Of a stretch of DNA of 53,421 bases, positions 2,219 through 50,539 are shown in pieces. The DNA lies in assembly GCA_032358255.1 (NCBI GenBank), contig JAULBX010026008.1, positions 1 through 53,421 on the forward strand. The letters are read 5' to 3'. The translations under genes and the position numbers were made by a program. A model generated the notes under the pieces. That model worked only from the letters and a program-made list of their open reading frames with translations. It was not told the DNA's origin and did not search any database. The DNA is from Heterotrichella gracilis (lineage: Eukaryota > Sar > Xanthophyceae > Tribonematales > Xanthonemataceae). Numbering within the stretch: position 1 is the stretch's first letter; every line of letters starts with the position of its first letter.

Positions 2219-5200
2219 ATGAAGCGTGAGCGGGACGAAAGTGAAACAGAAGAGCCAAGCAAAAGGGCCAAGGACGTGGATGAGGGCGATGCAGGAAACG
2301 GCGTAGTCAAGAACGAGAGCGAAGACTCTGATGACGACCAACCAACCCTGCAAACCATTAAGCTTGGGAATGCAGTTCGCAGGGGCGTTGAGTGTCCGTA
2401 CCTAGACACAATCTCGCGGCAGGTGAACGATGCTCATATGCATGCCTATGCACCAATGCATTACTGATGCATGCACGGTCTGGGAAGCATCACGGCAGCC
2501 ATCAAACCCTGCCATGACAAAGAGAGTTCTGAGACGTTGTCTTGTCCACAGAACTTGGACTTTGACTTTGAAAAGTGCTGCTCAGTCTCTTTGAGCCATG
2601 TCAACGTGTACGTCTGCCTGGTGTGTGGGAAGTACTTCCAGGTAAGGAACAAAGCCTGCTCTGCGTTTTTTTTGCCTGTTCACAGTTCTTTCTGGGCACA
2701 AGTGGGGACTGGGCGTGGGCATTCCACCTGTGTCCACCTATGCGCTGAGCCATTCCTGGTGGGGCTGCAGGGGCGGGGGCGAAACACGCACGCCTACACG
2801 CACTCGCTGGAAACAGGCCACCACATGTTCATGAAGTGTGACAACGGCAAGGTGCGTGCAAACCCCACTTGTAGTTGGTCCAGAACTGAACCCTTCTTTG
2901 CATACCAACCTTGGTAGCCGAGCCATGGCGCAGGGGATTGCATTGCCATAATAGTAAAATAGCCACATGCATTCCCATAGTGTAACAGGTATGGGCCCAT
3001 GCTTGCACAAGCTGCCCCACCGGCCCCACACCCCACGCGCCTCCCCTGCCGCAGGTGTACTGCCTACCAGACATGTACGAGGTGGTGGACCGCTCGCTGA
3101 GCGACATCCAGTTTGTGCTCAACCCCACCTTCACCCCCGAGGTATGTCAACAAAGGGTGCATTCACGTACTTGTGAGGGCCCATTGCGCAGGCATATTTT
3201 CGTTATTTATGAGCAATGGTTCTCACTAGTACGGTATGTCAACAAGTGTGCAGTCGCGCTAGTGGCGTTGGCATGCAGTCCCAATGCCCATCCAATTGTC
3301 ACACCCACCTTCACCCCCACAGGAGGTGCAGCGGTTGGACTCCGATGTCACGTGGGCGCGGGCGCTGGATGGCACCGAGTACATGCCTGGCTTGGTTGGC
3401 CTCAACAACATGAAGGCCAATGACTATGTCAATGTGATCATCCAGGCGCTGGCCAGGGTGTCGCCAGTCAGGTATGTGTTTTGTATGTTATTTCTATGAT
3501 GGGGACATCTTGAACTAGGGGTTGCAAGTGGGCCGCGTGCGTTGGTTGATGGGTAAATGGAGGCGCACTGCTGCTACTCCTGGCATGCAATCACCTGGCA
3601 ATTTTGGGGCAGAGTTGCCATTGCTGCCGGCTCATGTACAGACAAATTCAGAGGGCACAATGGACTATGTTATAGCAAGTTCTGATGTGTGACGTCGCAA
3701 TATTTTGGGGATGCAGGGACTTTTTCCTGGTCCCCAGCAACTACGGCGACTGCAAGTCCCTGCTGGTGCAGCGCTTTGGCGAGCTCATGCGCAAGCTGTG
3801 GAACCCGCGCAACTTCAAGGGCCAGGTACAGAAATCCTAAACCCTAAACACTTATAAGCAGGGTGGCACTGATATGGACATGTTTTTGCATGCCACAGGT
3901 TGTGAATCATTGCATGGGGGTAGCAATGGCATTGTGGCTGGCCCTCGTGGGTAGTTTCTGGGCAACACAAATCCTTGCCTTTGATGCCGTACATCATGAT
4001 CAGTACAGCAAAGTAAAACATGGGCCACAAGCCGGGCTACCTTGTGCTTGTTCTCAGTATGCATGGCGCTGCGTGAATGGGGGTGCATTCGGGTCTTCAG
4101 GTGCGTATCTGCCTGTCGGCATGAAGGGAAAAGGTTGGAAGTCCACAAGCTGGGATGCATGTTAGGTGGGCAATGCTGCAGGTCAGCAAGGGTACCCGTT
4201 AAAATCTGGATTTGAAAGTTTTTTCTTACCCTCGAGGTTGGCGCCAGGGCATGCACAAACCAAGGTCCCATGGTGCACTGTAAAAGGTTGTTGGGATTTG
4301 AACACGAATTCGAGTGTTTCATCCGACAACCAGGTACTGGATCGGTAATGGCAAGCCGCATGTGTGCCCCTTCTCCCCGATCCCAATGGGGATCCCGCCC
4401 CCAACCCTAAACCCCCCTCCTCCCCTGCCCAGGTGTCCCCGCACGAGTTCATGCAGGCTGTGATGGTTGCCAGCAAGAAGCGATTCATCATTGACAAGCA
4501 GAGCGACCCGCTGCAGTTCCTGTCGTGGTTCCTGGACACGCTGCACAGCGATTTGACAGGTGTGTGTGGGGATTGGCGCGGTGGTGTGTGTTTTGGGGGG
4601 GGGTTGCACTGGGGTAGGGGGCTGGGCATGTGGGTGAGGTGCATAGTTCTTGGGCACATTGCATTTACAGGCTCCTGTGGGTGGAGTGCACGGAGGGGAA
4701 GAGGGGTTGTGACGGGTGGGGAAGGCTGGGTTTGGGGGGTGAGTTTGAGGTGTGGGCGAGGTTGTGGTGAGGATGTGGAACTTGGTTTTTACATTCGCGT
4801 GCACAGCAAATTGTTAGACGTGTGTGGTGTGGGGTGCGGGGGAACTGAGGCGTGGGTGAGGTACATGGTTCCACCTTGCGCAACGACCTGACAGGTGTGT
4901 GGTTTGGGAAGGGGAGGGGAGAGGAAAGTGTGGGGCAGAATCTGAACCCTAAACAAAGCCCCAAACCCTAATAATAAAACCCTCACCGTGCCCCGGCCTG
5001 ATCAGTGTGCCCCCCTTCGCGCCAGGTGGGCGTCGCAAGCGGCCTTCCATCATCACCCGCTGCTTCCAAGGGGAGCTGGAGATAACCACGCTAGCGGGGA
5101 CGGGGGCAGCGGCGGGGCAGGTGGGTTGCGGCTGGCCAATGGCGCATCCACATTTATCTTATTGATGCCGTGGCTGATCTTGATGGTGCCCCTGGGAAAG

Positions 5201-7032
5201 TGGGCATGGATGATGGGCTCGATGTGATAGTGGATTCCTTGTTGGCCATTGCGGCTCCATACAGTAACATGCGTGTCAGCCCTACAGCCAGTTCAGCAGC
5301 AGCGGCAGGTGCATACTAAGCCTTTGCTGATTGCCAGCCATGGCCTAGCGCTGCATGGCACCTACCCAGCCTATGCTACACCTTTCTAGCGGGTTTCACC
5401 TACTCGGCTGTGGTACAGATTGCAATCACTGCCCCAATAACATAAATCGCCATCCCATGTCCAGTACCCCCACCTCCAAGTTCTGTAACCCTCCTCGCCA
5501 TTTGTGCCATCTAACCCCCCTCCCCCAACCCCTCCCCAGGCTGCCGACGTGACCACCCGCGTGCCCTTCCTCATGCTGGGCCTGGACCTGCCACCCGCGC
5601 CCCTGTTCAAGGACATCATGGACAAAATCATCATCCCGCAGGTGGGTGTGGAGGTGGCGGGCGGTGGTGTGGTGGTGGGTGCGCTTGTGGAGCATGAGTG
5701 TTGTGTTTGATGAATGGCAGGGATTTAGTAGTGTAACCTGGTTGGCACAGGGAAGGGGCATCATGTGGGCACAGGGAGATGCCACTGCCCAGCAAGAGGA
5801 TCTAAACAAAAACAATTAAAATAATGCATCCCTGGCGCAGAGATGCCCATTTCAATCTGCTGAATACCCCCCTCCCACCCTTTCCTTGCAGGTCCCCATC
5901 TTTGACCTACTGACCAAGTTCAACGGGCAGCTGGTGGTGGATGACGTCAAGGCGGGGCGCAGGAGGTTCCGCGTGTCGCGCCTCCCCGACTACCTCATCC
6001 TGCATGTCAAGCGGTTCACAAAGAACAACTTCTTCGTGGAGAAGAACCCCACCATCGTCAACTTCCCAGTGAAAAACCTGGATCTGGCGCAGGTCATCCC
6101 AGTCCCCACGGGTGCGTGTGGGGGATGGGAATGGGGATGGGGGTGGGGATGCCGTGTATGCGTGTAGTGATGGGGATGTAGGGTAGCATGTGAGCGGGGA
6201 TGGGGATCGAGTGTAACCTACTTGGGTTGTTAGTGCCGTGGTGTTATATGTTCATCCCCACAACGAGGGTGGCTTGTATAGCGCCCTCCTTTATCCCCTC
6301 CCCTCCCTGCCCCACCGCAGGCCCTAGGGCAGCGTACCCCACCAAGCGTGACCTTGCCGCCACCATCTTAGTTAGGATTTACACTAAACCTACACTTTCA
6401 ACCCCATACCCTAATCCCCACAACCCCCTTACCTCCCTCACCTCCCGCCCCACCGCAGGCGCAGGCGCAGCCCCTGCCAAGTACGACCTTGCCGCCAACA
6501 TCGTGCAGGACGGCAAGCCTGGCCAGGGCGTGTACCGGCAGCACCTGCACCGCAAGGTGGAGGATGTGTGGTACGAGGTGGCTGATCTACGGGTGGTGGA
6601 CATCCTGCCGCAGATGGTCACGCTGAGCGAGACATACCTGCAGGTGAGGCTGGCACAGGCCTATCAGTAACTAGAACATGGATCCTCTAGAACCCTAGCG
6701 TGGTCTCTTTTTGTTGGCGGTGGAACCTGGATTGGTGGGCATGCTTGTACGGTAAATGTACATAGTGTTTGAGAGTGTGTGGTACGATGTGGCCGACCTG
6801 CGGGTGGTGGACATCCTGCCTCAGATGGTCACCCTCAGTGAGACGTACCTACAGGTGAGGGTGGCACCACACTGGTACCTTAGCATGGGTTTCCTTTGAC
6901 AGTGGGGATCTGGAATTTCAACGAGCGCACTTGTACGGTATTTACACCCTTCAGTGCACATATATCTGTATTTTGCATGTACAGGTGTACGAGCGGAAGG
7001 CTGTGGTGCAAGGAGGGGACAAGGGGCAATGA
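2219..7032 (+). CDS. USP39: U4/U6.U5 tri-snRNP protein USP39/Sad1 (inactive ubiquitin hydrolase fold)
   Basis: Spliceosome assembly factor that keeps the U4/U6.U5 tri-snRNP competent. Exons: 2219-2422, 2552-2641, 2771-2851, 3055-3141, 3323-3471, 3717-3825, 4433-4559, 5026-5120, possible 21-nt exon 5288-5308, 5540-5641, 5892-6111, 6459-6643, 6985-7032; all phases join, giving about 498-505 residues. Order: acidic/basic N-terminus (KRERDESETEE), ZnF-UBP (CPYLDT, NVYVCLVCGKYFQ, THAYTH, GHHMF), then the USP fold (MPGLVGLNNMKANDY, ELMRKLWNPRNF, HEFMQAV, IKRF-type LHVKRFTKNNFFVEKNP, VDILPQMVTLSETYLQ). The position of the catalytic Cys in active USPs (GNTCY) is Asp here (KANDY, about residue 188), as in USP39 elsewhere, so it is non-hydrolytic. 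The start is the first Met before the charged N-terminus; the frame is open upstream to 2090. Introns hold several exon echoes and CCCTAAA tracts. Confidence 0.93.
4796..4905 (+). repeat. Two partial echoes of USP39 exon 7 3' edge plus donor
   Basis: In the intron after exon 7 (donor at 4560), the exon-end/donor segment (CTGCACAGCGATTTGACAG then GTGTGTG) recurs twice in degraded form: around 4798-4830 (GTGCACAGCAAATTGTTAGA then CGTGTGTGG) and around 4884-4905 (CAACGACCTGACAG then GTGTGTGG). The second copy preserves a plausible donor at 4895. Both lie downstream of the parent edge, offset about 260 and 335 bases. Confidence 0.6.
6300..6368 (+). repeat. Echo of USP39 exon 11 5' edge with acceptor
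   Basis: The segment ending in CCCCACCGCAG and continuing into sequence like the start of exon 11 (parent begins 6459) is a diverged copy: both contain GACCTTGCCGCCA, preceded by related CCCTCC...CCGCAG tracts. The echo acceptor is at 6320, 138 bases upstream of the true one. It has no good donor, so it is unlikely to be spliced as an exon. Confidence 0.75.
6774..6862 (+). repeat. Echo of USP39 exon 11 3' half with donor
   Basis: This intronic stretch re-encodes the end of exon 11: TGGTACGATGTGGCCGACCT, then codons for RVVDILPQMVTLSETYLQ, followed by the same GTGAGG donor at 6855 (parent donor at 6644, offset 211). Most differences from the parent are at third codon positions, so it may have been under coding constraint for a time or may be used as an alternative 3' exon part. 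Confidence 0.85.
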
Positions 7033-14329: not shown

Positions 14330-17300
14330 ATGTTGTCCACTGGCACGGTGTCCCGTTTGGGGACCCAACCTGCCATTCGCGCTGAAGCACCACGCGCGAT
14401 GGGCTCCTTCTCTGGGCTCAGGCGCACCAACCTCGTGGACAACGTGTCTGTCATGGCAATGAAGAGCAGCTTGAAGGTGAATGCACTACACAAACTGTGC
14501 GATGGCAGCTGCAGATCGTTGCCAACTGTTAGCTTGCACCTGGCTCGTAAACTGGCAGCAAACTTGTCCTTGTCCTGTTGGGTCATGGTTCGCAACGAAA
14601 CATAAACATCATTTAAACTGCATCTAGCCTTTGTTTGATGCGAAAAGCAGTGCATGCCCTCTGCCTTGGGGTTCAGAACACTGTGCTCTATCCTTATCCA
14701 GCCTGGCCTCATGCTGGAGCTAGCTTGCTCTGAAAATGAACCCCGTACCCTTTCCAGGCACCCATCCTCAGTGCAAAGAGGGCTACATCCTCGGCCACAC
14801 GCTCTGCAGTGACGATGAGTGCCGTTGCCCCAAAGAAGATCCTCATGCTGGGTAAGTCTTGTCCATAGTAGGTTTGGTGTGCCTAGCCTGGCCCCCTCCC
14901 TCACTGCCTTGACAGTGTGCACTTTTTCACAGGTGGTACCCGTTTCATCGGTGTGTACCTTGCCCGCCAGTTGGTTGAGGCTGGGCATGAGGTCACTCTG
15001 CTCACCCGTGGGAAGAAGCTAGTGACGTTCCAGATCCCAGACGACACCGATGAGGGCTTTGCCAAGTACGCTGCGGCTGTGAAGCACATTGCTGCTGACA
15101 GGAGCGACCCAGAGCAGATCAAGGCAGCCATTGCCAACCAGGGCTTCCAGGGTAGGGTTTGCACTTGCGGGGATGGATCTGCTGGCCCAAAACCTTTATT
15201 TCGGTATCCTGACAGCGCAATGCTGGGTGCACTGCGGTATTGCAGCCTCGCATTGCCTGTCATCACAACAGTGCACTGGTGCTTGTCTGACATAGGCGTC
15301 CTCTGTCTACGGCAACCCACTGTTGCCTCCAGGCTGCCTCATCTCCAACCCTACAAATTCGCGATTGTGAAGCATCATGGTACCATCTTCGCACAAAAAA
15401 AATCACTCAGTTAACAGCGTCCAGCAATACCCGTCAAACTAGCATAAATTATCAATGAATCATTTGAATAATGTGCACGCAAGAACATCCTCGAGCACCC
15501 CTCCCGTTTCCCTGTGCAGTGGTGTATGACATGAACGGGCGTGAGGCAGTTGAGGCGGAGCCCATCCTGGAGGGTATCCCAGACATGGAGCAGTACATCT
15601 TCTGCTCCTCAGCGGGTGTGTACCTGAAGAGCGACCAGATGCCGCACAGGGAGGAGGACGCAGTGGACCCCAAGAGCAGGCACAAGGTGCGGCACCCAAA
15701 ACCCTACTCCATATACCCTACAACCCTAATACACGAACCAGGCTGTTGACACTAAAAGCAGGGAGAGGGCGCTGTGGACCTTAAGAGCAGGTTCGGGATG
15801 CAATACCATGTAAGCCTGGATCGGACATGTCAAGCCCTCGCCAGGGAGGAGTACGAATAGCTCACCAAGTAGCTACTAAATTGCCTTACCCAGCCATGCC
15901 ATCACCAACCATGCGCCCTCTCTCCACACAAACCCGTGGCATTCCCAAAAGCACTGCACACACACACCTCCACCCCTCCTGCAGGGCAAGCTCGACACTG
16001 AATCCCTGCTGGCCAGCCGGGGGGTGAACTTCACATCTGTGCGGCCCGTGTACATTTACGGCCCCCTGAACTACAACCCTGTGGAGGAGTGGTTCTTCCA
16101 CAGGCTGGCAGCCGACAGGCCTATCCCCGTGCCCGGGTCTGGGATGCAGGTAGGCTGAGGAGGATATGCTTGCATTTCCAATCCCTTTCGCATCTTTTTG
16201 TCTTCTGCAGCATGTGGGGTTGTGGTGGGGTTGGGAACAGTGGCGCCAGCTTCTTCGATTTAATGTGTGATGACTAGCTTCGGCGTGTGAAGCATCTAGT
16301 CACCATATTGTGGTCACAACCAGCTGCAATCATTGTGGATGATCTAGAGAATATACTTCATAGATTCTGTACGGTTCACACACCTATGTACCTACCAACT
16401 CATGACTCATGAGTGATCACGTGGGATCGTGGGGGCGCAGGTGACCCAGCTAGGCCATGTGAGGGACCTGGCCACCGCATTGCATTCCTTAGTTATATAT
16501 CATGGCGTGTGATCATCATTGATCACGTGTGATCATTGGCTTGCAGGTGACCCAGCTAGGCCATGTGAAGGACCTGGCCACCGCATTTGTGAAGGTGCTG
16601 GGCAACCCCAAGGCAGCCAAGCAGATCTACAACATCTCGGGGGAGAGGTGCGATGAAGCGGGTGGTGGCTGTGTGATGGGGACCCATCCTTGATGGTGAA
16701 TCACCAATGCACGGAGCGGGTGAACAGAGACTGAGGAGCTGCATAGAAGGGTTCTAAATGGATGCGCAATCACAATCATTATTGCATGTTAAGTCCATCA
16801 AAGGTGGTTGGTGCGATGCGGTGTACTTTGTGGGTACTGTAAGCATGGCTCCACGGTCCCGCGCCAGGGCTTACTGACCTGAGGGGTGGGGGGTGGGGGG
16901 ACAGATGGGTCAGCACCGGGTGATGTGCACCATGACGTGCCCTGATGCCTCCGCGCCTTCACTTTGGGCAATTTAAACCCAGCACCATCCATCGTGGTCA
17001 TGGTAATCCCCCTTGCAAACACATTGCTCCTCACTATATGCCGCAATACAGCACCCACATGCCCCTCACCCACCCCTGCAGGTACGTCACCTTTGACGGC
17101 ATTGCCAAGGCCTGCGCCGAGGCCATGGGTAAGCCCGCCCCTGAGCTCATCCACTTCAACGCCAAGGACTTTGACTTTGGCAAGGCCAAGGCCTTCCCCA
17201 TGCGCGACCAGCACTTCTTTGCATCAGTGGACAAGGTGAGAACCCTAGCAAGTCACCCGAACCCCTGGCAACGAGAAGGAGCCCTGTCAGTTATACTTAG

Positions 17301-17824
17301 GACTGATGAGGTGCTCCCCAAGCGCGGGCAGCTCATGTTTGCATCAGTAAGGACTTTGAATCATGCACACTACACGTGAGGGCCTGCATATCCACACTGG
17401 GGAGGGACTGATGTGGAGGTCAGGGGGCAAAGGTGGGGGCCAGGATTGGGGGCTAGGGTCAATGCATGGACCCAGAGGGAGCACACATGCTTGCACTTCA
17501 TTAGTTGGCGAAAATACCTGCAGCTGTGAGTAGTTGTTGACCACCCATCAGTCCCCGCCGTTCTCTCCATCTCTCCAAAGGAGGCTGTTTGTGACTGCTG
17601 TCATCGTTGCATGGGAATGGTAGTGAAAATGATTGTTTGATAGTGAAAATGATTGTTTGTTGCAGGCCATGGATGAGCTTGACTGGCAGCCCGAGTTTGG
17701 GCTGGTGGAGGGCATCCGGGACTCATACGAGAAGGACTTTGGGCGGGGCACATTTCGCAAGGCAGCTGACTTCACCACGGATGACATGATCCTGGCCAAG
17801 GTCAAGGGGGTGGCGTACGCATAA
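14330..17824 (+). CDS. CSP41B: Chloroplast stem-loop-binding protein CSP41b
   Basis: Atypical short-chain dehydrogenase-fold protein that binds and stabilises chloroplast RNAs and associates with ribosomes and transcription complexes in plants and algae. Exons: 14330-14476, 14758-14851, 14933-15151, 15520-15686, 15985-16149, 16547-16647, 17082-17235, 17666-17824; phases all join, total 401 residues. The first ~75 residues, spanning exon 1 and most of exon 2, are Ser/Ala/Arg-rich and fit a plastid transit peptide. Then MLGGTRFIGVYLARQL carries the nucleotide-binding Gly motif (about 81-87). Family blocks follow: VVYDMNGREA, FCSSAGVYLKSD, AVDPKSRHKGKL, VRPVYIYGPLNYNPVEEWFF, QLGHVKDLATAFV, KDFDFGKAKAFPMRDQHFF, DFGRGTFRKAADFTTDDMIL. 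These are very close to land-plant CSP41b. Three introns carry exon-edge echoes. Confidence 0.94.
15758..15803 (+). repeat. Echo of CSP41b exon 4 3' edge
   Basis: GGGAGAGGGCGCTGTGGACC then TTAAGAGCAGG is a diverged copy of the end of exon 4 (parent GGGAGGAGGACGCAGTGGAC then CCCAAGAGCAGG, donor at 15687). Offset about 111 bases downstream, in the adjacent intron. The donor has decayed (GATGCA instead of GGTGCG). Confidence 0.75.
16406..16487 (+). repeat. Echo of CSP41b exon 6 5' edge with acceptor
   Basis: The exon 6 start (parent 16547) is preceded, 106 bases upstream at 16441, by a near-identical copy: GTGACCCAGCTAGGCCATGT then GAGGGACCTGGCCACCGCATT, one base different from the parent over this stretch. 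The copy includes a GCAG acceptor and a GATCACGTG segment of upstream intron that is also duplicated. After about 45 bases the copy ends abruptly. Confidence 0.9.
17310..17357 (+). repeat. Echo of CSP41b exon 7 3' edge
   Basis: CTCCCCAAGCGCGGGCAGCT then CATGTTTGCATCAG followed by GTAAGG copies the exon 7 end (parent TTCCCCATGCGCGACCAGCA then CTTCTTTGCATCAG). The shared TTTGCATCAG is displaced exactly 120 bases. The copy now has its own potential donor (GTAAGG at 17347). Confidence 0.75.
17621..17660 (+). repeat. 20-bp tandem duplication at CSP41b exon 8 acceptor
   Basis: 17621-17640 and 17641-17660 are the same 20-mer (TAGTGAAAATGATTGTTTGA versus ...TTTGT), 19 of 20 bases identical, ending directly in the TTGCAG acceptor of exon 8. 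It duplicates the likely branch-point/pyrimidine region. Confidence 0.9.
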
Positions 17825-20800: not shown

Positions 20801-20936
20801 GGCAACACCTCCAGACCAGTATACTCCAAGTAAAACTTTTGCGGATCCCTGGGTCCACTAACAAACTAGCAACAGTTTTTTTAGTAATTTGATATTTGTG
20901 ACAAAACAAAACAAATCTATCATGTAAAATGGAAAA
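17825..20936. other. Gene-poor stretch after CSP41b
   Basis: About 3.1 kb with only short open frames on both strands and no recognisable domain. Many TGTAA motifs (a green-algal poly(A) signal) occur at 18414-18610. A segment containing CACGACCGTTCA and GATG is repeated near 19190 and 19478. At 20750-20840 there is a local duplication. Confidence 0.45.
20769..20838. repeat. Local direct repeat
   Basis: CCAGTATACTCCAAGTAAAA then CT occurs at about 20769-20790 and again at about 20817-20838, preceded in both cases by a CAACACCT-like sequence. Tandem duplication with a unit near 48 bases in non-coding DNA. Confidence 0.85.
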
Positions 20937-20969
20937 TCCTAAACCCTAAACCCTAAACCCTAAACCCTA
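20937..20969. repeat. Interstitial telomere-type repeat (CCCTAAA)n
   Basis: Nearly five tandem copies of the plant/green-algal telomere heptamer (first unit TCCTAAA). It lies in non-coding DNA about 70 bases beyond the stop of the minus-strand exon at 21042-21083. It is too short and too internal to be a chromosome end. Confidence 0.92.
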
Positions 20970-25576: not shown

Positions 25577-28500
25577 ATGCAGGCCTTCACCGGAGGCCGC
25601 CTGGCCGCAGCAACAGACACCAACCACCCATGCTTCAGCGGCAGAACCCACGTGGACCGCCCATCGCTGCCAGCGTGTTCTCAGAGGCAGGATATCACCA
25701 GCCAGGCAGGTATCAAGGGCCCTCAGCAGGTCAGGGAACAGGCCTTCAAGCCCCAGGGCAGGAATGCCATGCAACGAGCCAGCGCTGCCTCCATCAACAT
25801 CGACTGGAGCCAACTGACCACCAGTGAGGAGCTTGGTGCACCAGCCATCGCCCCGGCATTGCCCCAGGACCCACCCTTTGCCCCAAGGCAGGCGCCTGCC
25901 AAGCCCCTGAAGATCAACCTGGACTTGCTGCTGGTGAGCCCTATGTGTAGCAAAAGTTATACTATGGCAGGTGCTGGTGAACGCTTCTGCGAGCAACCCT
26001 GCCAAGCCTTGTGGTGAGGTTTGGTTAGTAGTGCATGGCATCCCGCACATGCACATGCGGCGCCAAGCAGTTTTCTTCGGACGCCTCGTCAGGCTGCCCA
26101 ACTGGACAATCCACGTCATTCCCTTCACCCGTTTGCATCCCCCCTGCAGTACCGTGCCCGGCAAACCAGGATAGCAGCCAACCGCGCCGCGGACCAGGAC
26201 ACGCGGTTTGGCCTGTTCAAGGAAGCAGAGGAGTGCCTCAGGCGCTGCCTGGCGCTGGACCCCGCCGATGGCCGCTCCTATGTGTCCCTGGGCAAGCTGC
26301 TTGTGGACCAGAAGCGCAACGAGGAGGCCAGGGCGCTGTACGAGGATGGGGCAAGGGTGACAGGTGAGCGGCAGTAGTGGCTTGAATTTGCGCGGGATAG
26401 GGGCTTGCAAGTGCCCAAAAGCAGCAACGTGCAGCGGCACCGCCACGGGTGTGCATCAAACATATTGCGGTGGGTATCGCCCTGCGTGTGCACCATGGTA
26501 CTGTCTTTTGATGTGCATCATGGGTACTCGCCATGGGACCTCTATGCGTGTGCAACACCGTCCGCGGGGTTTGTCAGTCTAAGCAGTGTTTAGCAAAGAT
26601 TGCATGGTGCAATATCCCCATTCCGTCTGCTAACTCAAGCTAGCATGGGCTGGCAGCCACTCAACCAGATGCTAAACCAGTTGCTTGCAGAAAAAGCTGC
26701 CAACATTGCCAAAGCATCAGCGCTGCTCAACAGCATTTTTGGACATCGCGCACTGCGCGTCAACCCCCTGTGAAGGGCACTGACGCGTGTGCTGGTTGTG
26801 TGTGTGGCAGGGGGTGAAAACGCGTTCATCTGGACTGCCTGGGCGTACCTGGAGTCAAAGTGTGGAAACCCATCCAAGGCGCGCAAGGTACAGCCGCAGT
26901 GCATACATATGCCCATGGCGCAACCCTGCGCACTCGGCAGCGGTACCTGCACAGCGCACCGCCGCACAACATTGCAAGCAATGCGCTGTGCCGCACTACC
27001 GCCACGTGCCTGTTTCGTAACCCTGTGCATTGCATGCTGCGCTTAAGACTCGATCCATTGCCGCGCAACTTCCGGTGCACCCCTCGAGAGCATCCAGGCA
27101 CAGGTGGTAGTACACTGCACTCCCCGCCATGCGAAAGGCACACATTCCATTGCTGTGGGTGGGCTCCCTTATCACCACCACCCCACCACCCACCCACCCA
27201 ACCCCCCACCGCAGCTGTACGACGCCGCCACTGTGGCCAACCAGAAGCACGCGGCCGCCTGGCACGGGTGGGGCATGCTTGAGAAGCGCCAGGGCAATGC
27301 CCTCAGGGCTGCTGACCTGTGGATGAAGGGCATCCGCATCACGCGCGAGAACCCCAACCCCTACCTCTACCAGTCGCTGGCGGTGCTGGCGGCGGAGCTG
27401 GAACGGGTGGAGGAGGCGCGCAAGTGGTTCATGGCGGGGACGCGCACCGTGCAGGTGGGTGCGGAGGGTGGGTGGGGGCTCAAGAGGTGGTTTGCGGGGA
27501 TGGTTTGTGGGGGCTGTGGATGGAAGTGGTCGGTGGGTGGTGAGCTGGAGCTGGTGGAGCAGGCGTGCAAGTGATTCAAGGTGGGAATGCAGACCGTGCA
27601 GGGGGGTGCATCTGGGGCAAGTGGTTCATGGCGGGGGCTCGCATGTGCACTGGTGCGGGGGGCGGGTAGGGTTCAGAGGTGGTTTGCGTGGGTGCGCTGG
27701 CTTGCGCCGTACGCATGGTTTGGAGGGGTGGCGGCGTTGGCGGCGAGGTAGTACTTCATGGGCCGGGATATGCACTGCACATGTGTTGTGTGTGGGGGGG
27801 GGGTGCGTGGAGTAGTAGCAAAGCTGGGTGTGGGAGGCAACAGGCATTGAGTGCACCTGCTACGGATCAGCCGCTCCAAGCATGCATGCATCGCCACCTG
27901 ACGCATGCTTGCCATTGCACCCCACCACCACCCATTCGCCAACATCATGCAACCTGCAGGCTCTTGGCAGGCTACTCATGCATACGAGTCAGCCCACTGC
28001 CAGTTCCTCCACATACCCTCCACCCCACCATCCTTGGCAGGGCCAGGGCAACCCCTTGCACCGCTGCTGCTAGAATTACCAAACACTGAAGTCCTGAACT
28101 GTGAAACCTGAACCCTGCACCCACTACCTTTTGCAGGGGCAGGGCAGCCACGCCATCTGGCAGGCGTGGGCGCTGATGGAGGCGCGGCAGGGGGACCGCT
28201 CGGCAGTGAGGTACCTGTTCAAAAAGGGGCTGGAGGCGTCGCCAAGGTGAGGAAATGGGTTTGAACAAAGGAAGAAAGGCAGCGGAGAGGGAAGGGGAAG
28301 AGCATGATTTGCACCATATCCACGCTGTAATGTGTGTGGCGAAGTGGGACTTTGGGGGAAGACAGGGGCGAAGTGCAGGAAAACAGCATCTGCATGCTGC
28401 GATTGTTGCGGTAAAGTGGGTGGGGTGTGGGGCAGGAATACAGTACCTGTATGCTGCGATGCATGTGATAGCGCAGCTGGCATGGGGGGTGGGGAGTGGG

Positions 28501-31115
28501 CAAGTGGATGATGCCCTGGGTATGGTCAAAATCCTGAACCCTCAGCAGATTGTGGGCGTTACACCCTAAATTCTGCACTCCCTTCACCAGGTCCCGCTAC
28601 CTGTACCTGCCTTGGGCGCTGTGGGAGGGCAATTTAGATGTAAAGAAAACCCTAAATCCTCAGCAAAGCACGGGGTTCAAACCCTAAATCCTGCCCTTTC
28701 TTCCCCAGGTCTCGCTACCTGTACCTGTCCTGGGCCCTGTGGGAGAAGGAGCAGGGCAACCTTGAGACTGCCCGCAAGCTGCTGCAGAGGGGCCACCAGC
28801 TGAACAAGAGGGACGTGGCAATACTGCAGGTGGGTGGCGGGGAGGGGTGGGCGGAGGGGGGGCCATCATTGGGCATATAAGGGTGTTGCCGGGGTCATAT
28901 GTGGGTCATTACTGGGACCTGACAAATTTGGCCTAAGATTAGCTGGCGACAGGCCTTGTCATAGTGGCCCATCATGACCTGCCTTCAATTTGTAGTACTG
29001 TTATTTCAAGCGAGCAATCGCATCACACAGCATGGTGTTGTTATGGGGGAGCATCGTGAGTTGTATGGGGATCCTACTTCAACCTTGTGCTCTCACATAC
29101 CGTTTAATCCCCCTGCACCAATCACATCCGCACCCCCCACAGGCATGGGCCCTACTGGAGGAAGAGTGTGGCGACCTGGACAAGGCGCGCAATCTGTTCC
29201 AAAGAGGGGCGGAGGTGGATGCATCGCACCTGTACATCTGGCAGGTGAGGGGCCGGAATGGCCGGAATGGTTGGTCGGGTACCAAAGCTTCCCCTTTCAA
29301 GTGGCAAGGGAGAGGTCATGCCTGCAAGGTGGTCAACCTTTGCAAGTGCCGGGTCAGGGATTGCATTGGGGAATCTTTGTACGGCAGGTCTGGAGTTTGC
29401 TTATGGGAATATGTGCCTCTGGCAGGGCGTGGGATTGCAGTGCACGGTTAGTTTGTGTGGCATATGCGGTGGCATGCAGTGTGCAACCCGCTCTTGCGGC
29501 AGGTATGAGGGTAGCTTGGGTTTACCGCAAGGGACTTATAGGCTGATGGTGCGGGCTCATTACCAAACTTTCGGTGTGCAGGCGTGGGGCGTGATGGAGT
29601 ACAGCGGCGGCGACTACCAGCGCGCACTCACGATTTACCTGGTAATTGCAATTGTACGTAATCATTGCCTTAACATCCATCCACATCCGCAGGCGTGGGG
29701 CGTGATGGAGTACCGCGACGGCGACTACCAGCGCGCGCGGGAGCTGTTCCAGCAGGGCGTGTGGGCCGACCCCAACAGCAAGGACGTGTCGCTGGTGTTC
29801 CAGGCCTGGGGCGTGCTGGAGAAGGACGAGCAGAACTACAAGCTGGCAAGGGAGCTGTTCAAGTGCGCGGTTAAGGCGGACCCGCGCTCGGAGCCGTCGT
29901 GGATGGTGCGTTGGGGTTATGAGGGTGGGGAGAGGGTGTACGGTCTAGGGTTTTCAGGAGTGGGTGCAACCTGTACGGGTAGTGCATGCAGGGGTTGGGG
30001 AAGGAGGGTTTGTTATGGCTAGGGATTAGGGTTGTAAGCTGGCAGAGGAGCTGTTCATGCGTGCGGACAAGGCGGACCCGCGATCGGAGCCCTCATGGAT
30101 GGTGCTTTGGGGCTAGTGTTCGGTGTTGGGGGGGGGGTAGAGGGATGTTTTGGTTTTGGGGAGGAGGGGCCTCTCAGTGAGAATGGTCCTGGTAGCAAGA
30201 ACATAAGATTGGGGGACAGGCTGTTCAATTGCGCTGGCAAGGGCAACACGATAGGGGATGGGCGCAAAGAATATGATTTATACTTCCATATCTTTCCACA
30301 GCATAATGTATGATATCTGTTCAAAAGTTATACATTCATCCAGATTCATCCACTCGTTATTTATGCTGATTCATCCGTCATTAATTGTGATGTTTCCCCT
30401 TGCACCAGGCATGGTCCAGCCTCGAGGACGAGCTGGGCAACTACACGCGCGGCGCGGAGCTGCGGGGGTTCAGCATGCAGGAGCGCACGCAGGTGGTCAC
30501 GCCGGACAACTTCATACGCACACCTGACGCTGAGCAGATGGCCACGGCGCCGCTCATGGAGCAGATCAGCAAGTGGTTCTCAGGTGAGTGGCGGGCTTTG
30601 GGGTCGGGGGTGTGGGTGATGGGGCCGAATGGAGAGTTGCAGCATGTTACCACCATGAGTAGTCATCTGTCCTAGCCCAGCATTGATTGTGATGGCTGAA
30701 GGTCAGCACATGGTCTATGGGAATCATTGCCAAGATCTCTGGCCCAGGACGTAACTCTGGTGCTGCTGATCTGGTAGTGCTGGTGATATGCTTGCAATAA
30801 AACTTGCCATGCCTCCTTCACCGCTGCACCCCCCACATGCACCACACCTGCCGCCATCCCCTCACCCAATGTCGATCCGCTGACCTCCAAAACCCTCCCC
30901 CAGGGTTTGAGGCCGCCCAGTACAGCAAGCGCCGCAGGCTGCCCACGCGCCTGTCTGAGCTTGACAGCGACGGCACTGATGAGGTCACCCGCTCCAGCGT
31001 GCCCCTGAGCCTCAGTGAGTTCATGGCTAAGGATGGGAGCACTACCAGCATGAGCGACAGGGATGTGGAGAGCTTCATCAACTCGGTGCAGCAGCCGGGC
31101 AGGCGCTGGCAGTGA
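25577..31115 (+). CDS. MBB1: Chloroplast RNA maturation factor, Mbb1/HCF107-like (HAT/TPR repeats)
   Basis: Nucleus-encoded plastid factor; Mbb1 in Chlamydomonas and HCF107 in Arabidopsis protect and process the psbB (and psbH) mRNA 5' region by binding RNA through HAT repeats. Exons: 25577-25933, 26150-26363, 26811-26887, 27215-27454, 28137-28246, 28709-28829, 29143-29244, 29693-29905, 30409-30583, 30904-31115; phases join, 606 residues. The first ~120 residues are transit-peptide-like and linker. HAT/TPR units follow: DGRSYVSLGKLLVDQKRNEE, NAFIWTAWAYLESKCGN, HAAAWHGWGMLEKRQGNALR, HAIWQAWALMEARQGD, YLYLSWALWEKEQGNLETAR, AWALLEEECGDLDKARNLFQ, AWGVMEYRDGDYQRARELFQ, FQAWGVLEKDEQNYKLAREL. The C-terminal ~130 residues include TPDNFIRTPDAE, as in the family. 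Five exon-edge echoes lie in its introns. The RNA target here is inferred. Confidence 0.9.
27558..27655 (+). repeat. Two echoes of MBB1 exon 4 3' edge
   Basis: The exon 4 end (CAAGTGGTTCATGGCGGGGA then CGCGCACCGTGCAG, donor 27455) recurs at 27568-27601 (CAAGTGATTCAAGGTGGGAA then TGCAGACCGTGCAG, offset 147) and at 27618-27650 (CAAGTGGTTCATGGCGGGGG then CTCGCATGTGCAC, offset 197). Nearby GGTTCAGAGGTGGTTTGCG also echoes intron sequence after the parent donor. Confidence 0.85.
28535..28632 (+). repeat. Echo of MBB1 exon 6 5' edge with acceptor and telomere-like tracts
   Basis: TTCACCAG followed by GTCCCGCTACCTGTACCTGC then CTTGGGCGCTGTGGGAG (28591 on) copies the exon 6 start (parent 28709: GTCTCGCTACCTGTACCTGT...), offset 118. 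The upstream intron portion, including ACCCTAAAT and CTCAGCA pieces, is present in both copies. Confidence 0.9.
29582..29641 (+). repeat. Echo of MBB1 exon 8 5' edge; possible in-frame cassette exon
   Basis: Preceded by TGCAG and followed by GTAATT, this 60-base segment encodes AWGVMEYSGGDYQRALTIYL, nearly the same as the true exon 8 start at 29693 (AWGVMEYRDGDYQRA), offset 111. Both ends are phase 0, so inclusion would insert 20 residues without breaking the frame, giving an extra half HAT unit. Confidence 0.85.
30042..30112 (+). repeat. Echo of MBB1 exon 8 3' edge with donor
   Basis: AAGCTGGCAGAGGAGCTGTTCA-type sequence, then AAGGCGGACCCGCG, CGGAGCC, TGGATG and GTGC, copies the end of exon 8 and its donor (parent donor 29906, copy 30102, offset 196). 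A short internal deletion shifts the frame relative to the parent. Confidence 0.85.
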
Positions 31116-32385: not shown

Positions 32386-35300
32386 ATGGGCACCATGGAT
32401 GGAGTGGCCAATCGGGCACATAGACCCGCCAGGGCTGTCCTTGCGCTCCTGGTGTGCTGCCTGGCAGTGCATCATGCAACTGCGGCCCTCATGGCGGTGG
32501 ATCTGGGCAGCGAGAACCTCAAGATAGCGGTGGTGAAGCCTGGCAAGATCCCCATATCAATTGTGAACAACGAGATGAGCAAGAGGAAGACGTCAGCACA
32601 GGTGGCGTTCATCAACGGAGAGCGGCTCCTGGGCGAGGAGGCAGCTGCCCTGGGGCCAAGGTACCCTGATAGGGTTTACCAGAAGTCCAGGGAGCTGCTG
32701 GGCAAGTTTGCCTTGCACCCCTCAGTCACCCAGCTGCTCAAGGCATCCTACCTGCCATACACTGTGGTTGAGGACCCACTGAGGAAGACGATAAAGATCA
32801 AGACGGACAAGGGGGACCAGCACTCGGTGGAGGAGATAGTGGTAGGTGCAACTCGCCACACTGTACTGAGTGGACTATTGGGCAATCAAGCTGCATTGCA
32901 TGCGCTCTGGACACTGTGGCAATGGGCACATGCATACAGTGCAAACGTTCAACCTGTCTTGGTGTCTGCGAGACCCAGCCAGACCTTGATGCATTCTATA
33001 CGTACTGCTCGTATTGAGCACGTTGCCTTCTCTGCACACTGCTGCCACCAGGCCATTGCATATAATGCCATGCTGCACCACCTGCAGGCCAGCCTCCTGG
33101 AGTACGCGCTCCACCTCACCAAGGCAGCCGCCGACGGCCAGCCCGTCACAGACTGTGTGATCACAGTCCCCACCTTCTTCGGCCAGTCCCAGCGCCAGGC
33201 CCTGAGGGACGCGGCCGAGATAGCTGGGCTCAACCTGGTCAGCCTGGTCGATAACACAGTGGCTGCGGGCCTGCAGTACGGCATCGAGCGCGACTTCAGC
33301 AACAAGTCTGAGAACGTGCTCATCTACGACCTGGGTGCCTCCAGCGCCGAAATCGCGCTCATCACCTTCACCGGGGGCCCTGTCAAGAAGGGCGCCAAGG
33401 GGGGAAGTTACGCGCAGTTCAAGGTGGTGGACACCATGTGGCTCGAGAACTTTGGGGCCCAGGACCTGGACATGCTGCTGGTGGAGCACTTTGCGGATGA
33501 GTTCAACAAGAAGCTGACAGGTGGCGTGGACATCAGGGACCACCCTAAGTCCATGGCTAAATTGAAGAAGCAGGTGAAGCGCACCAAGGAGATCCTGAGC
33601 GCAAACACCGAGGCGCCGCTGAGCGTGGAGGAGATCTACGATGGCATGTAAGCACCGCACATCCAGTCATTTACACATCACAGTGGGTCATGGCAGCCAG
33701 TGTTGCATACCAGGTGTTCATTATCATGGACCATGGAATGTAAGCGCCGCACGCCCAATCTCATGGGCACATAACAGTGGGTTCTGGCAGCCAGTGTTGC
33801 ATACCAGGTATCCATTATCATGGACCGTAGCTAGTCAGGTAATTGCATGCGTTCCTGCAATACATTCAGGTTACCAGTTTGGCCTTGCACAAGCAGCATC
33901 AAGCCGATCTTCCCTGGCACTGTTCATCCTATGCATGGGCCATGCTGGGGACTGTCCACACAACCTTCAGCGGTTGCCAATGCATTGCAACAAGGCTGAC
34001 TGTGTGACAAATGGCCACGTGCAGCGATTTCCGGGCGAGCATGAAGCGGGGCTACTTTGAGGAGCTTGCAGGGGACTTCTTTGACAGGGCAGCCGCACCA
34101 TTGGTCCAAATCTTGGAAAGGAATGGCATGACAGTGGATGACATCACCAGCGTGGAGCTGATCGGCGGGGGCTCGCGCATCCCCAAGTTCAAGCGGGCGG
34201 TATCTGAGGCCCTTGGGGGGCGCGCTGTAGACCTGTGAGTGGACTCCTGTGATGTGGGGATTGGGGGGCTGTATAAATGCTTGCCAGGGCCTACCGTATG
34301 TATGGTTACAACGTTAGTATTCCGTAGTTGCCAGTCATGTGTGTGTTCCTGCATGCTGCACATGTGGTAATGCACTTACTGACTGAGCTATTCCTGACAC
34401 GCCATGGTTGTCATGCTGGCACTTGATTCCCTCGGCCTGCTTGGCCTGATGTTATTCCACCCCCCTTTAATCCTTGCTGTTTGGGCCCTCTGAAGGCACC
34501 TTGATGCTGATGAAGCTGTGGTGCTGGGAGCTGCCTACGTGGCGGCCAACATGAGCACAATCTTCAGGCTGCGCGACATCCGCATGGTCAATGGCGCTAC
34601 CTACGGGATCAAGTTCCAGGTAGGATGCCGCGCCTGATTGCATCTGCCATGCTATGTTTGCCATGCAGAACACACACTGAATTTGGTGTCAACTGTGTTA
34701 AAATCCACCAGCAGGTGTACATGCTACAGTAGGAAATGCAGCTAAGTTCAGCATTGTTTTGGCTCCCTGGGAGGAGGCCTGGATTTAAATTTTGCACTTA
34801 AATCCATTTTCAAGTTTTAAATTCAAATAAATTCCATTTCAAATTTCATTGCAATTTCAATCTTCGGTATTGTAGTTGAAATGCAATATGTGCTTCCCAA
34901 AACAACCACTTGGTGAGTAAGACCATTCACAAAGGCATTTTCTGTTGGCAGGTGGAAGATGAAGCTCCCACCGTGACAACCCCTCCAACAGAGGCTCAGC
35001 TGCAGCACGCCGTAGAGGCTGCCACCAACACCGCCAAGGCGCTGCTCCCCAGGATGAAGCGCCTGCCCTCAAAGCGGGTGGTGCACCTCCACAACATCAC
35101 CGCTGACTCCCTCCCCTTCAGCCTGTTCTATGACACCAACCAGAGCCAGCCCCTGCCCAGCGGCGTCTACTCGACCCTGATCGCAACCTATGATTTGTCC
35201 GGCATCGGCAACGTCACTGCAAAGTACAACGAGTCTGGCAAGATCAGCATCCACTTCAGGGCGGACAGCAGTGGCATCATTGTGGCTGATAAGGCAGAGA

Positions 35301-47585: not shown

Positions 47586-47640
47586 GCCACCACCACCACC
47601 ACCACCACCACCACCACCACCGCCACCACCGCCACCACCT
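47586..47640. repeat. (CCA)n trinucleotide microsatellite
   Basis: About 18 consecutive CCA/CAC units with occasional CCG. Depending on frame it would read as poly-Pro, poly-His or poly-Thr; flanking frames give no recognisable protein. Confidence 0.9.
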
Positions 47641-48415
47641 GTCGCTGCTAACCGCACCACCATTGCGCACGTACATGAGCCACATGGGCCACACGAAATT
47701 CACCAGCATGTATGTGCACACCATGTACCCCGCAGGCTACAAATCCTATTATGTAGCCACGAAAGTCTAACCGGCGCCGCAACTTGTTTGCCACATGCTG
47801 CGAGATTTGCCATTCACCCTCTGGACTAGGCTTCCCTACCACATCAGGACCGCGCGCATCTTCAACCAACCTCCTGATCCGGAAGTGCACGCCAGCCCTC
47901 ACTGGCCGCTGCGTTGACATCAACCTCCAACCACTGCCTCGACCATGGCTATGACAGTGACGGTATGGGGAGAGTGCGCAGGGCACAAAAAACGTGCTGG
48001 CAAACCATCTAAGTGCCACATTGTTATCTTCCTTGTTGTTATCATTATCATTCCTCCTTACGATTGCTTAATGATTCTTTTGCACCGGTTGCCTCATTGT
48101 ACATACTCCTCCTGTACAAGAATAATTAGATACAATATTGATAAAAAGCATAATTTGCATATTTATTCCAGTTTTCCTTTAAGCACCCATGCCAGAAATG
48201 GCTTGCCAGCGCCAAAATGACTGCTGCGTTGACTCACTGGCATGTCACATCTATCTCTGCCTGATGCCATTGGTGCAACCATGGCTACGGCAATGAAGTG
48301 CCCACTGATTTCCCTCACCGACACCACCAGACACCCATACTTTATAAGGTCCTTGTCCTGGATAAAGAAGGGAGCAATACATTAAAAAAATCAAAGAGCC
48401 ATTTTGCAAGCGCAG

Positions 48416-50539
48416 GCAAGTGCACCGGGGCCAGCCCGCTCCACGACATCCCCCAGTGGCGCCTGGAGCAGCTCGTGGGCATGGCCATCACCCGCCCTGG
48501 CCTGTACCGGCAAGCGCTCACTGCCAAGTGTGTCCTGCGGGGGGAGTATACCGTCTCGCATTCCATGGAGCGCCTACAGCTGCTGGGAAATGCGGTGCTG
48601 GCTGTCATTGTGCACCAGGATCTGTACCAGCGCTACCCCAACAACGATGAGGTGTGTGTGTGGGGGGGGGGGATTGTGCAGTGGTGTGGTGGAATGGGGG
48701 CAAGTGCTCAATTCGAGTATTTTCTGCGGCATGAATGAGTAATTTCATTGAGTGCAGATGAGCAGCAGTGGGAGAATGAGGATGAGCTGGAGGCAGGCGG
48801 CCACCTGCGGTAAAATCCTAAACCCTAAACCATGGAACTCGGTGTGTGCATACCTATCTAGGGCCAGGTGACGGTAAACCGTAGACCCCAAACAATACAT
48901 TCCAGTGTGTCTACGTAGCCCTAGCTAGGGGCTTGATGTGCTGGGAAAGCCTTGGTATGCTGCTGGTGGAGGGAGCAGCAGTGGATCACTGGGGTGCGGA
49001 GGGTGCATGTGATGCCTCACACCATGCATGGCAGGCGGTACATGGCACACCCGCACCACGAAATTGCAAGCCCAAAATCTTGTACCCTAACAGCCTTTTC
49101 CTGAAGGGTGCGCTGTCCCAGGGTGCCGTTCATCTGATCAGCGCAAAGGCAATTCTGTACCCTAAACCCTAGGGTCGACCCTTGTTGCAGGGCGCGCTGT
49201 CTCAGGGTGCCGCTTTTGTGATCAGTGGCAAAGCGGCAGTGAGTTTGCTGAGCGGCTGCAGCTGCGGCGCTACGTGGCGGTCAACCTGCATGCAGTGGAG
49301 GATGAAGGTGGGGTTTGTCTCGAGCTGGATCCTAGGTTCCAGAAATTGGGGTTTATGATTTAGGGGAGCTGCCGCGTAAGCCCTGCATTGTGGTCAACCT
49401 GCACATGAAGGACAAAAGAGGTAAGCAATCTTACTTCTGACACGATACGTTTGCCACCCCTGATCTGCAAAGACCCTGAAACAAGTTTTGCAACCCTAAA
49501 CCCTAAACCCCATAGGTTTCCCTTTTAATTGCTTTTTGCTTGCCGCGTGCACTTAGCAACGCTTTTGAGGTCCTTACTGCAGCAGTCAACCTGGATAGGG
49601 GCCTCGGCGCATGCCGCCGCTTTGTGCTGCGCTTGATCGCCAACAGCATGGACACCAAACCTTCACCCTCCAAACACAGTGTGCTGGCCGCATGCGCTGG
49701 GCGATCCTAAACCCTAAACCCTAAACCCTCCTTGCACAGGGCGCTGGCCGCGCACTCTGGGCAACGCTTTTGATGCCTTCATTGCCGCAGTCTACCTGGA
49801 TAGGGGCCTCAGCGCATGCCGTCGCTTTGTGCTGCGCGTGATAGGCCAAACCTTGGACCCGGATGATGTCGTGGCTGAAAAGAATTTCAAGGATCGAGTG
49901 AAGTCATGGTGCCAGTCCCGGGGATTGGATGTGCCAAACTACACCAGATACGGGTACCGGAGGGCGGCTGGGAAGGACAAAGGGGGGGTGAAGGTGGGTG
50001 GGATGAATGCACCTCTTATGGAAGATGGGAGGGGGATGTCATTGACTGATTTAAACTTTAATATGGCTGGCAGCAGGCTGCTGTGCATCGTGCAGTGCGT
50101 TTGATATCTGTGTGATGTATTCAATAACTTATGAGGGGCGTGCACCTGACTAAATATCATCTGTCACACATGGAGGTGGTGGACACCGCTGTTTGCCGCC
50201 ACGCAGCAGGCTCACTTGGCATGTGGCACAATACCCATCTGCATGTGTGTGCCAGTGCCATCCGCATGCCATAGGTGGATAACCAGCACATGCCATGGCA
50301 ATGACGCATGTAGCCATGGTCATATGCGCCTGCAATTTGCACCTGACTTGCCCGTGGCTTTGATCCGGATGCCTCCCCTGCAGCGCATGGAGTGGGCCGT
50401 GACAGTGGTGATAGCTGGGGAGGAGGTGGGGCACGGCATGGGCCGGACCAAGACAGATGCGGAGATGAGCGCCGCACAGGACGCCTGGAACAGCGTGCTG
50501 CAGGGCGCGTTATCTGATGCGCATGCTGCACAAGTGTAG
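48416..50539 (+). CDS. Degenerate RNase III-like protein with C-terminal dsRNA-binding domain
   Basis: Exons recognised: 48416-48651, 49191-49307, 49740-49993, 50384-50539 (stop). RNase III features: WRLEQLVGMAITRPGLYRQA, SMERLQLLGNAVLAVIVHQD then LYQRYPNNDE, GALSQGAAFVISGKA, ERLQLRRYVAV, TLGNAFDAFIAAVYLDRGLS. A dsRBD follows: NFKDRVKSWCQSRGLDVPNY then EWAVTVVIAGEEVGHGMGRT and SAAQDAWNSVLQGAL. The usual signature ERLEFLGDA reads ERLQLLGNA and the second metal site (LADTxEA) reads LGNAFDA, so most catalytic acids are replaced; RNA binding without cleavage is likely, as in RNC1 or mL44-type proteins. Exon 2 is one base short for its flanking phases (frame change near 49240), so this may be a pseudogene. 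The 5' exon was not found. Four exon echoes and four telomere-type tracts lie in its introns. Confidence 0.68.
48816..48830 (+). repeat. Intronic telomere-type repeat
   Basis: TCCTAAACCCTAAAC, two units, in the first recognised intron of the RNase III-like gene, on the sense strand. Confidence 0.8.
49104..49172 (+). repeat. Echo of RNase III-like exon 2 5' edge, followed by a telomere-type tract
   Basis: GAAG then GGTGCGCTGTCCCAGGGTGC copies the exon 2 start (parent 49191: GGCGCGCTGTCTCAGGGTGC), offset 84. Between copy and parent lies ACCCTAAACCCTAG (49159-49172). Confidence 0.85.
49370..49420 (+). repeat. Echo of RNase III-like exon 2 3' edge
   Basis: TGGTCAACCTGCACATGAAG then GACAAAAGAG/GTAAGC copies the exon 2 end (parent GCGGTCAACCTGCATGCAGT then GGAGGATGAAG), offset about 113, with a usable-looking GTAAGC donor. 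Confidence 0.75.
49492..49510 (+). repeat. Intronic telomere-type repeat
   Basis: AACCCTAAACCCTAAACCC, sense orientation, about 30 bases upstream of the large exon 3 echo. Confidence 0.88.
49541..49660 (+). repeat. Long echo of RNase III-like exon 3
   Basis: About 115 bases copy exon 3 from GCAACGCTTTTGA through CCTGGATAGGGGCCTC, GCATGCCG, CGCTTTGTGCTGCGC to GACACCAAACC; the parent equivalent begins at 49761 (offset 205). The copy encodes a variant of the same helix (LSNAFEVLTAAVNLDRGLGA); its active-site position reads Glu where the parent has Asp. Confidence 0.9.
49679..49729 (+). repeat. Short echo of exon 3 start joined to a telomere-type tract
   Basis: GTGCTGGCCGCATGCGCTGG then GCGAT (49681 on) copies the exon 3 start (parent 49741), offset 60, and runs directly into TCCTAAA followed by CCCTAAA units (49705-49729). 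The telomere tract is fused to the duplicated exon edge. Confidence 0.88.

Follow-up and report, generated by a model that had tools for sequence, protein, structure and literature searches.

Copies of exon edges in the introns of Heterotrichella gracilis: probable products of staggered-break repair, often with telomeric filler

We analyzed a 53,421-nucleotide (nt) stretch of the Heterotrichella gracilis assembly GCA_032358255.1 (contig JAULBX010026008.1, positions 1 to 53,421; hereafter the window), in which diverged partial copies of exon edges lie in the introns adjacent to those edges. A first-pass annotation had described about 17 such copies in five multi-exon genes, namely USP39, an RNase III-like gene and the genes to which it gave the names CSP41b, MBB1 and Hsp170, and had ascribed them to short tandem duplications across splice junctions. 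The copies are present and the process extends well beyond the window, with a strong copy in the adjacent intron at 55 of 495 exon edges and in approximately one intron in five of a wider sample, but most copies are separated from their parent by filler, often telomeric, rather than abutting it as a tandem duplication would. The copies are probably the second arm of a target duplication, left when a staggered DNA break underwent error-prone repair.

The assembly behind the window comprises 68.5 Mb in 903 contigs. The sample consisted of the window and 17 ten-kb algal stretches of the same genome, selected by contig number and not at random, for a total of 223 kb and 256 introns; from the 20 stretches fetched, 3 with GC <0.45 had been excluded as non-algal. 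Held-out loci were fetched later by telomere pattern. Exons were called with a gene finder whose first training set came from the window (29 exons placed by hand in three genes, plus two single-exon genes) and whose second consisted of its own predictions; the recovery of all 29 exons is a result on the training set itself.

All 17 copies were found at or near the offsets first reported for them, 14 being strong and 3 weak. Self-comparison of the window (E<=0.01) returned 18 direct repeats with an offset of up to 500 nt, all 59-218 nt apart, and no direct repeats at offsets of 500-1500 nt; thirteen of the 17 reported offsets were among them (138/139, 211, 111/112, 106, 120, 147, 197, 118, 111, 196, 92, 84, and 205). 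The offset of 60 nt in the RNase III-like gene is the fourteenth strong copy, a repeat family which was upheld on re-scoring. USP39 +260, USP39 +335 and RNase III-like +113 make up the remainder; these matches are short yet exceed chance, a fraction of no more than 0.002 of shuffles or randomly chosen places in the window reaching their scores. An assembly artefact is unlikely in our judgement, since the 10-20% difference between parent and copy follows a neutral/constrained pattern and one event is common to a paralogue. A genome search with two introns as queries returned their own locus only.

Duplication of a whole unit in tandem would make the length of the match equal to the offset. When 700 units per class were aged in a simulation and recovered by the same search as the real pairs, whole-unit duplications gave a median match/offset of 1.00, with a 10th percentile of 0.60 for exon-edge units (0.96 at >=90% identity). 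The observed median was 0.51 over the 80 of 92 local pairs with an offset of up to 260 nt, and 0.33 for the 18 of these with at least 90% identity. The like-for-like comparison with exon-edge pairs likewise gave 0.51 (n=55), falling to 0.30 for the 12 pairs of at least 90% identity, and match/offset reached 0.9 in 4 of the 55. Values so far below the simulation indicate that most copies are shorter than their offset, with unrelated sequence between copy and parent, and an origin by short tandem duplication as proposed is not supported for the majority.

The intervening sequence is frequently telomeric. Arrays of 42 nt of (CCCTAAA)n open six contigs on the plus strand, beginning no more than 7 bases in, and close five contigs on the minus strand, stopping no more than 14 bases short of the end, with a few more being internal; this placement in the right orientation identifies CCCTAAA as the telomere repeat of the organism. 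Exact telomere 17-mers have 2437 placements in the genome (overlaps counted), compared with 2 for a scrambled 7-mer. Within the sample, 101 telomere-like runs were intronic, 13 were intergenic and none was exonic, and shuffled sequence contained 1. Run density was 3.49/kb in the spacers between copies vs. 0.94/kb in other intron DNA, a 3.7-fold difference, and 25 of 83 spacers contained a run. Among the 63 intronic spacers with a length of 15-200 nt, 28 showed telomere similarity at a gapped score of at least 18, compared with 94 of 1260 intron pieces of equal lengths.

The same association is seen when the telomere runs are taken as the starting point. Direct repeats flank 37 of the 101 intronic runs; at control points placed equally far from a splice site the count was 131 of 2020. 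Both arms of a repeat lie within 12 nt of the run in 18 of 148 intronic telomere-like clusters (7 of 50 in the held-out share), compared with 11 of 2160 random intron points pooled over the sample and the held-out loci (Fisher p 2e-15). Arm lengths around telomere clusters range from 15 to 134 nt. Arms within 25 nt are seen at 27 clusters, and at 23 of them one arm is exonic. Clean arm-filler-arm structures include L044 1371-1397 (64-nt arms, gaps 0/0) and L047 1501-1529 (15-nt arms), and further cases are L034 1498-1523, L018 2405-2422, and L008 3080-3116 (L numbers denote sampled loci).

The copies are specific to exon edges. The 55 strong copies (score >=34; 495 of 512 edges were tested) comprise 28 acceptors and 27 donors and fall in 51 of 251 introns, whereas exon-interior pieces starting 60 nt from an edge yielded 6 of 352 (Fisher p 2e-8), and none of the 495 edges had a strong copy in the reverse complement of the adjacent intron. 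In 87 of 495 cases the edge's own intron gave a better score than any of approximately 57 foreign introns, where 8.5 were expected. Pair placement was examined for 92 of the 102 local pairs with an offset of up to 500 nt, 10 array-like pairs being left out. Pairs of a junction-spanning and an intronic copy numbered 48, vs. 16.5+-3.5 under random placement, while exon-interior plus intron pairs (8 vs. 12.9), intron-intron pairs (13 vs. 21.9), and intergenic pairs (6 vs. 21.2) fell below their random values; both members spanned a junction in 7 pairs (4.0 random). There were no local inverted copies besides self-palindromes, which accounted for all 11 found at offsets of up to 260 nt.

As claimed originally, copies of acceptor edges are found upstream of their parent and those of donor edges downstream, with 46 of 47 junction-spanning pairs following this rule. 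This geometry, together with neutral decay of the other copy, bears out the proposal that of the two copies only the exon-joined one is kept. Across the 61 of 92 pairs with one exonic and one non-exonic member, divergence was 99/1003 (9.9%) at first, 108/1014 (10.7%) at second, and 195/1012 (19.3%) at third codon positions, values of approximately 10% vs. 19% which are indicative of a constrained parent and a neutral copy; intron parts of these pairs differ at 220 of 1337 sites. A codon-phase test that dispensed with gene models stayed near its null (40 ungapped pairs, 228 vs. 219+-6) and was too blunt. Divergence at first and second positions spans 0 to 24% in the 49 pairs with at least 20 such sites, and this spread of copy ages speaks for a continuing process, in agreement with the earlier suggestion. 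The decoy splice sites that had been predicted mostly persist, with GT/GC in 16 of 21 donor copies and AG in 23 of 26 acceptor copies. For the suggestion that copies seed new introns the signs are weak: donor and acceptor flanks of the same intron gave a mean score of 7.57 vs. 6.19, and the donor-against-acceptor test was topped by USP39 intron 4 (3142-3322; 23 vs. a control maximum of 22), an intron whose sequence makes birth by duplication possible.

We propose that two offset nicks, approximately 15-134 nt apart, one exonic and one intronic, would open a staggered break. Fill-in of both overhangs would then turn the stretch between the nicks (B) into two arms, and the ends would be joined with filler (X); the resulting B-X-B' structure is what we observe, with X in many cases a short stretch of the telomere repeat native to this alga. 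The nicking, fill-in and joining steps are modeled on repair described in earlier reports (PMC8355091; PMC2246262, PMC7215372). Telomeric filler may consist of repeats added in place by telomerase or of captured telomeric fragments. Where B lies across a splice junction, the exon-joined arm is conserved and the intronic arm decays neutrally; where B is wholly exonic, the gene would be broken and lost. Survivors span exon edges, with acceptor copies upstream and donor copies downstream, because only the exon-joined arm is kept and exon-internal events would be lost.

The explanation offered originally, a plain tandem duplication whose unit equals the offset and whose intron half decays, fits the 46 of 47 geometry and the neutral decay equally well. 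It also accounts for some pairs, since 10 of 92 fill at least 0.9 of their offset (33638/33730 and 28528/28646 are full-length or nearly so) and 31 of 83 spacers (of 111 pairs; outer-flank homology test) retain some homology to the outer flank. As a general account it is nevertheless unlikely, given a simulated match/offset near 1 against the observed medians and telomeric filler that is far commoner between arms than at control points. Less likely again is that telomere runs came first and that mispairing or unequal exchange between two flanking runs duplicated the segment, leaving one run between the copies. Among the 27 armed clusters, 11 do have a telomere-like 8-mer within 15 nt beyond an arm, where the background is 3.7% per side. 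Such exchange would, however, require runs beyond both arms, which 1 of the 27 has within 15 nt, and the outer breakpoint of exon-edge cases is exonic, where no runs were found.

Two further explanations appear highly improbable to us. Direct arms around an insert resemble the target-site duplications of an introner-like or other mobile element, here one carrying telomere-like sequence, and dispersed repeats do occur in introns, with 10 of 256 whole introns matching another sampled locus non-telomerically at up to 95% over 86 nt (e.g., L013 303-1073 vs. L016 and L045). The spacers themselves behave differently: 6 of 74 match another locus, 5 through telomere repeats only and the sixth telomere-like on reading, in a cross-match sample of approximately 0.3 Mb in which rare insert families would be missed. 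Arms of 15-134 nt are moreover unlike a fixed target duplication, and the runs vary in length and strand. Retention of tandem exon duplications as alternative, mutually exclusive exons is equally improbable as the general origin, although a few pairs differ almost exclusively at third codon positions, among them L010 3031/3210 (0/48 at first and second vs. 6/24 at third positions) and the donor copy of USP39 exon 11 (6776-6867), where all exonic differences within the match are at third positions (0/52 vs. 10/27). The latter is a possible alternative exon, as if both copies had once been coding; being one of 61 pairs, however, its pattern could be due to chance. The gene finder also called one MBB1 copy (29582-29641) a 60-nt in-frame exon. 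Against this origin, first and second positions diverge at half the third-position rate over the 61 pairs, as expected when only one copy is constrained, though single pairs may differ, and most copies are exon fragments.

Several observations weigh against the proposed repair of staggered breaks as well, beyond the pairs that plain duplication explains. The density of telomere runs in introns is 8 times that in intergenic DNA (p 6e-19), an intron preference that random break repair does not predict and that is also seen in 18 of 21 held-out telomere sites; putative transcription-linked breaks would fit this bias. At score 18, 35 of the 63 intronic spacers lack clear telomere similarity, so that other filler or decay must be assumed there, and the strand and side of the telomere runs with respect to the arms lack the evident bias that telomerase acting directly on the arms would be expected to leave. 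Taken alone, the 21 central, locus-defining held-out sites gave a much weaker result than the pooled arms test: at score 26, 9/21 compared with 51/380 intron points of the same loci, and at score 36, 5/21 compared with 40/380 (p 0.002 by rank test). The reason lies in the high scores that intron points reach in these loci (40/380). A preservation bias of approximately 1.35, obtained by simulation (0.226 vs. 0.167), is too small to account for the surplus of exon-edge pairs over intron-only ones, and the mutation and indel rates of that simulation were our own choice. Finally, exon boundaries outside the three hand-built genes come from a largely unsupervised gene finder, without RNA evidence.

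In the window, the copies of the USP39 gene concern exons 7 and 11. Its protein finds its best match in a Myrmecia bisecta protein (75% identity over 91%); Myrmecia is a genus of the Trebouxiophyceae, so that this match by itself would suggest a green alga in or close to that class. Intron 4 of this gene (3142-3322) carries a terminal copy of the exon 4 tail (CCCACCTTCACCCCC).

4542..4569, plus strand: USP39 exon 7 donor edge (parent)
4800..4827, plus strand: weak copy of the exon 7 donor edge (+260)
4877..4901, plus strand: weak copy of the exon 7 donor edge (+335)
6296..6367, plus strand: upstream copy of the exon 11 acceptor edge, 79% over 72 nt
6386..6418, plus strand: degenerate telomere-like filler between that copy and its parent
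6435..6502, plus strand: exon 11 acceptor edge (parent), junction 6458/6459
6565..6656, plus strand: exon 11 donor edge (parent), junction 6643/6644
6776..6867, plus strand: downstream copy of the exon 11 donor edge

The product of the CSP41b-like gene has an epimerase fold, and a comparison of its model with solved structures gave no relative at E<=1e-10. It is here that the description of the copies as exon edges complete with their splice site needs qualification, as the copies at +111 and +120 end before the splice site. A perfect 20-nt tandem repeat (17621-17659) is located directly upstream of the last acceptor of the gene.

15647..15680, plus strand: CSP41b-like third exon end (parent), in our gene model
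15694..15720, plus strand: degenerate telomere-like filler between third exon end and copy
15759..15791, plus strand: copy of the third exon end, splice site unrecognisable
16407..16481, plus strand: copy of the fifth exon acceptor edge, 88%
16513..16587, plus strand: fifth exon acceptor edge (parent), junction 16546/16547
17195..17228, plus strand: sixth exon end (parent)
17315..17348, plus strand: copy of the sixth exon end, match ending before the splice site

The MBB1 gene encodes a HAT/TPR-repeat protein by domain match. Its exon 6 acceptor parent segment itself contains telomere-like runs (28647-28660 and 28679-28692), and 63 nt of unrelated filler separate the exon 8 acceptor copy from its parent. 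The annotation of such genomes is affected by these copies, one of which the gene finder read as an exon.

27395..27462, plus strand: MBB1 exon 4 donor edge (parent), junction 27454/27455
27542..27609, plus strand: copy of the exon 4 donor edge (+147), with TGA in the parent's frame
27617..27694, plus strand: MBB1 copy +197
28528..28627, plus strand: copy of the exon 6 acceptor edge, 79% over 100 nt of the 118-nt offset
28646..28745, plus strand: exon 6 acceptor edge (parent), junction 28708/28709
29578..29625, plus strand: copy of the exon 8 acceptor edge, 96% over 48 nt
29689..29736, plus strand: exon 8 acceptor edge (parent), junction 29692/29693
29840..29919, plus strand: exon 8 donor edge (parent), junction 29905/29906
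29933..30033, plus strand: exon 8 donor spacer, telomere-like runs near both ends (29933-29953, 30020-30033)
30036..30115, plus strand: copy of the exon 8 donor edge, 85%

The Hsp170 gene, which has an HSP70 match, does contain the reported duplicate at +92, but as a full-length tandem duplication that is almost wholly intronic. The RNase III match of the RNase III-like gene falls below the Pfam cut-off.

33638..33826, plus strand: Hsp170 intron full-length tandem duplication, unit of approximately 92 nt, including only the last exon bases
49102..49148, plus strand: copy of an RNase III-like acceptor edge, 81%
49159..49171, plus strand: telomere repeat ACCCTAAACCCTA between that copy and its parent
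49186..49233, plus strand: RNase III-like acceptor edge (parent)
49346..49365, plus strand: telomere-like filler preceding the +113 copy
49392..49420, plus strand: weak donor-edge copy (+113), common to the L024 paralogue
49538..49653, plus strand: copy +205 of an RNase III-like exon, open in the parent's frame
49657..49702, plus strand: second copy of that exon's acceptor edge, offset 60
49706..49729, plus strand: telomere repeat of three units between the second acceptor copy and the parent
49743..49858, plus strand: RNase III-like exon (parent)

A paralogue of the RNase III-like gene was found in a held-out locus (L024 2205-2960). The paralogue shares the +113 donor-edge copy and has a canonical TAGGGTTTAGGGTTT run where the filler of the window is degenerate. 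The +205 copy was not found in this paralogue, whose single exon is matched by both the parent and the copy of the window (83% and 82%, respectively, compared with 81% between parent and copy). The paralogue supports telomere-filled duplication.

The placement of the repeats in multi-exon genes held for the 17 copies, but local direct repeats also occur outside the predicted ones. One with an offset of 68 nt (46407/46475) is outside predicted genes, and an 81-nt direct repeat with an offset of 147 nt (50577-50803; 50577/50724) follows directly after the RNase III-like gene. Also outside predicted genes is a nearly perfect 36-nt telomere run (20934-20969). Two adjacent predicted intronless BTB-domain genes (40365-41852 and 43301-44731), which are likely tandem paralogues, have no local direct repeat in the self-comparison of the window. 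The low-GC contigs L002, L011, and L014 (contigs C1, C100, and C180; GC 0.33-0.37) contain 0, 0, and 3 local pairs, respectively, at E<=1e-3 and no telomere runs; the listed open reading frames of L002 and L011 look bacterial, and L014 was set apart by GC only.

The components of the proposed repair have precedents. Small tandem duplications reportedly arise by fill-in of staggered breaks (Vaughn and Bennetzen in 2014, Schiml in 2016). CST-Pol alpha-primase, which also fills in telomere ends, is described in one study as carrying out fill-in at breaks with 3' overhangs, yielding small tandem duplications (PMC8355091); the target in the alga is likewise directly duplicated on both sides of the join, but those duplications are plain, whereas the algal arms are separated by filler that is often telomeric. 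Short interstitial telomeric sequences are inserted during double-strand break repair in rodents, primates and the horse (PMC2246262, PMC7215372), and these papers ascribe the direct target duplications at some of them to staggered breaks. Like those of the alga, they are short runs of the organism's own telomere repeat at internal sites, although in the alga an insert of this kind is evident in only part of the spacers (28/63 at score 18). Target duplication is rare at the mammalian sites (4.6% rodent, 16% primate, 4.5% horse), and human sites are never exonic (PMC2246262, PMC7215372); 31% of the human sites are intronic, which fits random insertion (PMC7215372). The alga differs in having 101 of 114 runs in introns, long arms, and edge copies in approximately one fifth of introns.

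Intron gain via local exon duplication, as presented in PMC3488318, likewise involves an exon duplicate in intron sequence and direct repeats beside introns, but yields a new intron, whereas in the alga an existing intron gains a copy of its own exon edge. Introner elements (PMC7789003) resemble the algal inserts in being confined to introns and in having direct repeats; the sampled algal spacers differ in sharing no insert family beyond telomere repeats and in having long, variable arms. Our search of one open-access full-text library returned no report of telomeric insertion and fill-in duplication combined, concentrated in introns and marking a fifth of those sampled; telomeric insertion at breaks (in mammals) and fill-in duplication are each already known.

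Taken together, these results turn a vague notion of exon-edge duplication into countable scars, whose filler points to a repair process. More tentatively, and with somewhat less than an even chance in our estimation, the telomere machinery (telomerase and/or fill-in) may be a main repair route for breaks in transcribed genes of this alga, growing introns by telomeric filler, duplicating exon edges, and supplying decoy sites, some of which may become alternative exons or introns. Telomere-filled duplications are a concrete source of both intron growth and ready-made decoy splice sites.

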